Positions 39,772 to 41,328 of a DNA stretch of 64,000 bases are shown piece by piece. How positions within the stretch are numbered: position 1 is the first letter of the stretch; each line of letters starts with the position of its first letter. The stretch lies in NCBI GenBank assembly GCA_016185365.1, contig JACPNP010000007.1, positions 1 to 64,000 on the forward strand. Direction: 5' to 3'. Below the pieces are notes generated by a model. It was not told the origin of the DNA. It did no database searches and saw only the letters and a program-made list of their open reading frames with translations. The stretch comes from Terriglobales bacterium. GTDB lineage: Bacteria; Acidobacteriota; Terriglobia; Terriglobales; Acidobacteriaceae. The translations under genes were made by a program, and so were the position numbers.

Positions 39772-40167
39772 ATGAGCGAAAAGATCGCTAAGACCGACGA
39801 GCAATGGCGGGCGGAACTGACGCCCGAGCAATTCCATGTGACCCGTGAAAAGGGCACCGAGCGGGCCTTCAGCGGCGAGTATTGGAACACCAAGACGCCC
39901 GGGGTCTATCTCTGCCGCTGCTGCGGGCAGGAGTTGTTCTCTTCGGACACCAAGTTTGATTCCGGAACAGGCTGGCCCAGCTTCAGTCAGCCGGCCTCGG
40001 GAGGCGCGGTGGAAGAGCACCGCGATTCCACCTACGGCATGATGCGCATCGAGGTCACCTGCGCCCGTTGCGGCGCGCACCTTGGGCATGTGTTCCCCGA
40101 CGGCCCTCGGCCAAATGGCCTGCGCTACTGCATGAACTCGGCCAGTCTGAAGTTGGAAAAGAAATAG
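39772..40167 (+). CDS. msrB: Peptide-methionine (R)-S-oxide reductase
   Basis: 131 residues, the usual length. Zinc-binding pairs are CRCCGQ and CARCGAH. The substrate region is [13 protein letters not shown], and the catalytic cysteine is in LRYCMNS near the C-terminus. It repairs oxidised methionine in the cytoplasm. Divergent from blaI; the ATG at 39772 is preceded by GAGG. Confidence 0.97.
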
Positions 40168-40225
40168 GCCCGAGGCAGATTTTGTCCCAGCCGGGAAGAC
40201 TCCTCCATCGTATTTGCCAAGAACC

Positions 40226-40252
40226 GTGTGGCACAGCCGTCCTCGGCTGTGC
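40226..40252 (+). repeat. REP hairpin upstream of RAYT 1
   Basis: GTGTG precedes a perfect nine-base stem GCACAGCCG (40231-40239), loop TCCT and CGGCTGTGC (40244-40252). It lies 15 bases before the RAYT start. Same sequence at 51556, and with loop changes at 52085, 13040 and 13145. Confidence 0.9.
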
Positions 40253-40267
40253 TACTCTGCCCAGCCA

Positions 40268-40831
40268 GTGAAGTTGACCAAGAAATTCGCATATCGCAGG
40301 AATCTTCCACACATTCAGAAGGCTGATCGGCCTCACTTCATCACTTTCAACACTTGGAATCACTTTCAGCTTCCTCCGGATGCCCGGGACACCGTCTTTC
40401 TCGCCTGTCTTCATTATGACGAAGTCAAGATCGGACTGTATTCGGTCGTCGTCATGCCAGACCACGTGCACATGGTCTGCACCTTCCTTCGAAACACTTA
40501 TGGTGAGATCCATACTTTTGCGGAATTATTGAATTCGATCAAGGGATTCACCGCGCACTCCGTCAACCGGCTTTTGGGGTGGAAAGGGCACCTTTGGCAG
40601 GACGAAAGCTTCGATCATGTTTTGCGCCATGAAGAATCGATCGCGCAGAAGATCGAATACCTAAAAAATAATCCGGTCGAAGCCGGCCTGGTCAGTAAGC
40701 CAGGGGATTATCCCTGGCTTTGGGCCGATGACATGGTGGATTGGTCGTTTGTTCGCACAGCCGAGGACGGCTGTGCCACACGGACCCTGGATCAACTACC
40801 GGCTTGGAAGTCGCGGCAGAGTCAGGAATGA
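40268..40831 (+). CDS. REP-associated tyrosine transposase (RAYT), copy 1
   Basis: 187 residues from GTG 40268, the position that also starts copy 2. The Y1 transposase features are YRRNLPHIQKADRPHFITF, the HUH-type metal motif MPDHVHMV near 62, SIKGFTAHSVNRLLGWKGHLWQDESFDHVLR, and the catalytic tyrosine in KIEYLKNNPVEAGLV. After the usual end (YPWLWADD) the frame runs through an inverted REP at 40755-40781, which encodes RTAEDGCATRTL. Single-stranded DNA nicking at REP sequences is the known activity of RAYTs. About 75-80 per cent identical by eye to the protein at 51509. Confidence 0.93.
   Translation: MKLTKKFAYRRNLPHIQKADRPHFITFNTWNHFQLPPDARDTVFLACLHYDEVKIGLYSVVVMPDHVHMVCTFLRNTYGEIHTFAELLNSIKGFTAHSVNRLLGWKGHLWQDESFDHVLRHEESIAQKIEYLKNNPVEAGLVSKPGDYPWLWADDMVDWSFVRTAEDGCATRTLDQLPAWKSRQSQE
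40755..40781 (-). repeat. Inverted REP hairpin inside the 3' end of RAYT 1
   Basis: GCACAGCCG, loop AGGA, CGGCTGTGC, then CACAC: the exact reverse complement of the upstream copy at 40226-40252. It lies within the transposase reading frame. Confidence 0.9.
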
Positions 40832-40845
40832 TCCGGACGACCCGC

Positions 40846-41328
40846 CTACAACGCCCTCAACACCCGCAGGGCATCCTCATTGTTCGGCTGCTCGCCCAGC
40901 TCATACACCTGGGAAAAGGCGATCTTGCCGGTCTTGTCCACCACGAACACGGCGCGTTCATTGATGCCGGGGATGGGCGGACCTTCGCGGAAGACGTCAT
41001 ACTTCCGCGCGATCTCGCCGTGCGGGTAGAAGTCCGCGCACAGCGGATACTTCAGCATCCCGATGCCCTTCTGCTGCCAGGCGGTGTGACTGAACAGTGA
41101 ATCCACGCTGATACCCACGACCTGGGTATCGAGGCCGGCGAACGTATCGAGTTCCGCATCGTACGCCGACATCTGCGCGGTTCACGTCGGCGTCCAGTCC
41201 AGCGGATAGAACGCCAGCAGCACATTCTTGCTGCCCCGGTGATCGCTGAGCTTCACCGTGTGGCGCTCTTCTCCGGTCACGGCCGGAAGTTCGAAGTCCG
41301 GCGCCATCGCGCCCACTGGCAAGGCCAT
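40846..41328 (-). CDS. Peroxiredoxin (AhpC/TSA family), probable selenoprotein with UGA at the peroxidatic position
   Basis: One continuous frame from ATG 41328 (GGAGGG site upstream) to 40846, interrupted only by TGA at 41184-41182 (codon 49). Translating TGA as U gives [20 protein letters not shown]. The family motif is PxxxTxxC, so the TGA falls exactly on the peroxidatic cysteine. The rest is intact: [15 protein letters not shown] at the start, [49 protein letters not shown]. Total about 160 residues, normal for the family. The only cysteine left (LCADF) could resolve. A hairpin starts 14 bases after the UGA. The alternative is a nonsense mutation, which would have to hit this one codon by chance. 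Confidence 0.85.
41136..41168 (-). promoter_or_regulatory. Candidate bacterial SECIS-like hairpin after the UGA codon
   Basis: On the mRNA strand, 14 to 46 bases after the UGA, CGGCG pairs with CGCCG (5 bp), then A-C-G with C-G-U, then UG with UA around a ten-base apical loop CGGAACUCGA. The GG in the loop lies 27-28 bases after UGA, within the usual bacterial range. Pairing was done by hand. Confidence 0.45.

Follow-up and report, generated by a model that had tools for sequence, protein, structure and literature searches.

The 64,000-nucleotide stretch of DNA analysed here (hereafter, the window) contains on its minus strand (40846..41328) a peroxiredoxin gene of 160 codons followed by a TAG stop codon (40848-40846), identified on the basis of its reading frame, Pfam and PDB matches and homologues. 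The 160-residue product begins with MALPVG and ends with VLRAL, and its reading frame presents a single interruption, a TGA at codon 49 (41182..41184, minus strand) that falls on the exact spot of the peroxidatic residue in the PxxxTxx[C/U] motif, here PLDWTPTU. An earlier note on this DNA had described this frame, its coordinates, the motif and the lone TGA at 41184-41182, and the sequence, the Pfam match and the PDB alignments agree with it on all four. The match to the Pfam AhpC-TSA domain (PF00578) extends across the TGA with 115.5 bits, against a cut-off of 26, and in alignments with PDB entries the catalytic Cys of known peroxiredoxins aligns with the TGA column. The catalytic set is complete, comprising Pro42 of the PxxxTxxU motif (41203..41205, minus strand), Thr46, Sec49 and the invariant catalytic Arg125 (NERAVF; 40954..40956, minus strand), and Cys97, the sole ordinary cysteine of the protein, lies at 41038..41040 (minus strand). 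A standard ORF caller reports for this gene only the 108-aa fragment starting at MSAYDAEL, downstream of the TGA, which is the truncation that the earlier note had anticipated.

Both upstream signals mentioned in that note can be located on the minus strand, yet they differ in their support. A GGAGGG Shine-Dalgarno sequence (41339-41334) lies 5 nt upstream of the ATG, and a TATAAT hexamer (41360-41355) could represent a -10 element. A promoter scan detected no -35 partner hexamer for this TATAAT, and the promoter hence constitutes weak evidence.

The structure predicted with the TGA residue entered as Cys (pLDDT 96) resembles Prx1-type peroxiredoxins, with a TM-score of ~0.9. In Prx1-type enzymes, the resolving Cys sits in a C-terminal tail. 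The best match in both fold and sequence was to 2-Cys enzymes of the Prx1/BAS1 type (PDB 5zte and 6j13; TM 0.91), but the window protein does not have the C-terminal tail bearing the resolving Cys. The short peroxiredoxin AhpE of Mycobacterium tuberculosis (Rv2238c; PDB 5id2 and 4x0x) matches with ~84 bits and has the PHG and catalytic Arg regions in common with the window protein, but carries a Cys, aligned with U49, where the latter has Sec. Among NCBIfam models, the best-scoring one was PrxU (NF040737), to which the earlier note had likened the gene. The likeness holds for the catalytic site, where PrxU also has Sec, but not for membership of that family, with 81.1 bits against a cut-off of 270 and 160 aa against a model of 233 positions. 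On these scores, the window gene lies outside the PrxU equivalog and belongs to another Sec-peroxiredoxin subfamily.

Alignment with homologues addressed whether the peroxidatic column holds C or U, a check put forward in the earlier note. Across 89 loci that share 65 or more identical residues with the window protein (window gene included) and come from Acidobacteriota, Bacillota, Zixibacteria and others, this column is TGA in 78 and Cys in 11, with no other residue present. Relatives in the named genome collection include Acidobacteriaceae, Candidatus Korobacter, Candidatus Angelobacter, Pyrinomonadaceae, Tumebacillus, Ammoniphilus, Schinkia, Zixibacteria and Ignavibacterium. In a class-wide search encompassing 299 genomes, the best 12 homologues outside the source genome, from 10 genera and three families, each presented exactly one TGA, and alignment to the window protein put it in the peroxidatic column every time. 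Conservation of the TGA in homologues is thus far above chance, and codon 49 is almost certainly read as selenocysteine at the active site. Estimates of dN were 0.20-0.31 on the 3' side of the TGA and 0.18-0.34 on its 5' side, with dS ranging from 0.7 to saturated. These low dN and high to saturated dS values on both sides indicate that both halves of the gene evolve as protein, with purifying selection downstream of the TGA comparable to that acting upstream. The aligned region is devoid of Cys in 43 of the 78 Sec forms. Cys97 is kept in just 21 of the 78, and hence cannot be a resolving residue for the group in general.

Several other peroxiredoxins were observed in the course of these comparisons. 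One genome (G251) carries a Sec copy (L034) together with a close TGA-free copy (C20:118208-118672). Gemmatimonadota-type peroxiredoxins with an FFRxRTxGU motif (L179, L185, L187-L190, L192 and L193) make up a group of their own that also has TGA in the peroxidatic column, and Wallbacteria Sec peroxiredoxins (L166, L169 and L170) present WTGGU in place of WTPxU.

In bacterial SECIS elements, the apical loop opens with a G, at a distance of roughly 16-37 nt from the TGA. Folding and comparison outlined a putative bacterial-type SECIS stem-loop within the coding sequence (41134..41170, minus strand), with a stem formed by 41170-41164 and 41140-41134 and a GAACU apical loop (41150..41154, minus strand) that is immediately preceded by a G. 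The first G of the loop is located 28 nt past the TGA, inside the expected distance. The hairpin proposed in the earlier note therefore exists, and it is conserved with covariation; its stem begins, however, ~11 nt past the TGA instead of 14, and its energy is not above chance. The z-score of the window hairpin was +0.78 against dinucleotide shuffles and -1.2 against synonymous recodings, and single-sequence folding energy, being no better than in either, was dropped as evidence for a SECIS. The support for the window hairpin as a candidate SECIS comes instead from comparison. A stem-loop starting 11-12 nt past the TGA is common to Sec copies and mostly missing from Cys copies; its short apical loop opens, in the majority of Sec copies, with a G at +28. 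Folding energies were about -11 to -29 kcal/mol for Sec copies (-15 to -26 in one compared Sec set) and just -6 to -11 kcal/mol for nine same-class Cys copies; two actinobacterial Cys copies (L172 and L173) fold strongly, unlike most Cys copies.

A covariation test on 28 non-redundant Sec sequences with 500 shuffles yielded 75% paired cells and a covariation score of 0.208, compared with 68% and 0.108, respectively, in the shuffles; no shuffle reached either value (0/500 in both cases), and since related sequences are counted repeatedly in these measures, the figures are not to be read as probabilities. The stem structure also outperformed every slid register in this test. Among 171 pairs of wobble positions, the +18/+42 pair showed the highest mutual information: G-ending Ala and Ser codons pair with TTC (GCG/TCG, 23 times), and their A-ending counterparts predominantly with TTT (GCA/TCA, 15 times with TTT and 3 with TTC). 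Because the changes at both positions are synonymous, this covariation points to selection on the RNA. RNAalifold retained only four stem pairs on the alignment, a result that we count against the selenocysteine reading, and the Bacillota and Zixibacteria copies, which are more divergent and fold in variant ways, were left out of the structure fit.

The earlier note had also proposed a search for the sel genes and had regarded the absence of all of them as grounds for discarding its reading. The source genome (2.38 Mb in 70 contigs, 89.5% complete) encodes selA (560.8 bits) and selB (381.5 bits), both above their cut-offs, so that the machinery is not absent altogether. The search did not detect selC (tRNA-Sec) or selD in this ~89% complete assembly, where the best selD match is a 67-bit paralogue. 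The eight best tRNA-Sec candidates in the genome are in fact tRNA-Ser, His, Cys, Leu, Arg and Lys, and placement of selD by synteny on the contig carrying the selD-like paralogue (C30) was uninformative, with a single gene pair matching. selA is present in each of 15 relatives carrying the TGA gene (as two fragments in G188), and selC and selD in 14 each. The relatives missing selC (G188) and selD (G211) are represented by incomplete assemblies (80-87%), and Aragorn confirmed a tRNA-Sec (TCA) in nine relatives. Six same-family genomes that do not have the TGA gene yielded no selA or selD above the cut-off and no tRNA-Sec scoring >50 bits. In most relatives (L085-L100), selD itself contains one in-frame TGA and is probably a selenoprotein gene.

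The missing genes could alternatively reflect a decaying selenocysteine trait, in which the lineage would have lost selC and selD and retained selA and selB as remnants, with the TGA now ending translation in what would be a recent pseudogene. In favour of this scenario, both genes are absent from a 2.38 Mb assembly of an estimated 89% completeness, and two of four genes would be missing by chance in ~5% of cases if gaps were independent. Two neighbouring genes are however also absent from the source assembly, where both have only distant paralogues, as assembly gaps would predict: one, which we take to be PhzF-like, is found next to selC in five out of five relatives, and the other, presumably TldD/PmbA-like, lies upstream of selD in four out of five. 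Furthermore, selA and selB are intact, and there is no other damage in the peroxiredoxin gene or in two further AhpC/TSA-type genes of the genome that each contain one TGA at an active-site-like position. Given that the neighbours of selC and selD are missing too and that nearly all relatives with the TGA gene carry selA, selC and selD, the evidence favours, without proving, assembly gaps over trait loss. We infer that selC and selD lie in the unassembled part of the genome, and consider trait decay improbable; the apparent lack of these genes in an incomplete assembly does not equate to loss of the trait. It is less likely still that the lineage truly lacks selC and selD and reads UGA in some other manner, such as through an unusual tRNA inserting Cys or Ser.

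Other explanations fare worse. An ordinary pseudogene, in which TGC or TGT had mutated by chance to a stop, would need a change of just one base in a Cys codon, but the TGA occurs in 77 other loci from several phyla and is followed by a conserved stem-loop, which in practice refutes this possibility. It is comparably far-fetched that the downstream MSAYDAEL frame, of 108 aa, gives the functional product. An ORF caller lists this frame, but it contains neither the active site nor the initial strands of the fold, and the portion of the gene upstream of it is itself conserved as protein-coding. A sequencing or assembly error at the TGA, conceivable in a window from a fragmented assembly, is the least credible of all, given that relatives from independent isolates and studies show TGA in the same column. 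With only TGA or Cys in this column across 89 loci, neither chance mutation nor sequencing error can explain the TGA.

The conserved TGA column, the covariation in the stem-loop and the presence of selA and selB in the genome hence support the selenocysteine-peroxiredoxin reading advanced in the earlier note. We regard it as very probable that the window contains a functional selenoprotein gene, encoding an AhpC/TSA-fold peroxiredoxin with Sec as its peroxidatic residue. SelB loaded with Sec-tRNA(Sec) would bind the stem-loop shortly past the UGA, allowing the ribosome to insert Sec at codon 49. The selenolate of this residue, within the Pro42, Thr46, Sec49 and Arg125 site, would then reduce peroxides, being converted into a selenenic acid. 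Given that the protein has no tail with a resolving Cys, that many relatives are Cys-free and that Cys97 is not conserved, the enzyme probably follows a one-Sec mechanism in which an external thiol would act as the reductant.

TxxU Sec peroxiredoxins (Prx in PF00578) are a recognised selenoprotein family (PMC13188914, PMC1794560), and a Sec peroxiredoxin from Eubacterium acidaminophilum is cited in PMC13188914. Like the window gene, members of this family, found in many bacteria, combine an AhpC/TSA domain and a PxxxTxxU motif with Sec at the peroxidatic site. Nothing essential sets the window gene apart from them; it represents one subfamily, common to Acidobacteriota, Bacillota and Zixibacteria and often without any Cys. 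Selenoproteins have already been reported in Acidobacteria (PMC1794560, PMC13188914, PMC5029168), including one acidobacterium with three known selenoproteins (PMC12013277). Our literature search on AhpE-type Sec peroxiredoxins and Acidobacteriota selenoproteins returned reviews and surveys, none of them on the present gene group. The window gene is therefore genuine but unexceptional, belonging to a known type of selenoprotein gene that gene-prediction software cuts short. Its identification corrects a gene that pipelines cut off before the active site, adds a clean selenoprotein case for a Terriglobia-type acidobacterium, and draws attention to a peroxiredoxin subfamily of several phyla that depends on Sec and in many cases has no other redox residue.

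The two further redoxin genes with a TGA map to other contigs of the source genome. The first (contig C10, 30846-31226, plus strand; L005:1450-2000) is AhpC/TSA-like, with the TGA at FSRGYYU, and is probably a second selenoprotein gene. The other (contig C51, 33525-33824, plus strand; L007:1450-2000) encodes a SelL-related redox protein with the TGA at LRHYGU, and scores 119.4 bits with the NCBIfam model of such proteins, just under its cut-off of 120. A scan of the window for other split frames that might be Sec genes brought up none as clean as the peroxiredoxin. Close to the peroxiredoxin gene, an MsrB-like (methionine sulfoxide reductase) frame with Cys (RYCMNSASL) is present at 39772-40167 on the plus strand. 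A frame resembling REP-associated transposases (VVVMPDHVHMV; 40214-40831, plus strand) lies just downstream of the peroxiredoxin gene and is flanked by short sequences that resemble each other.
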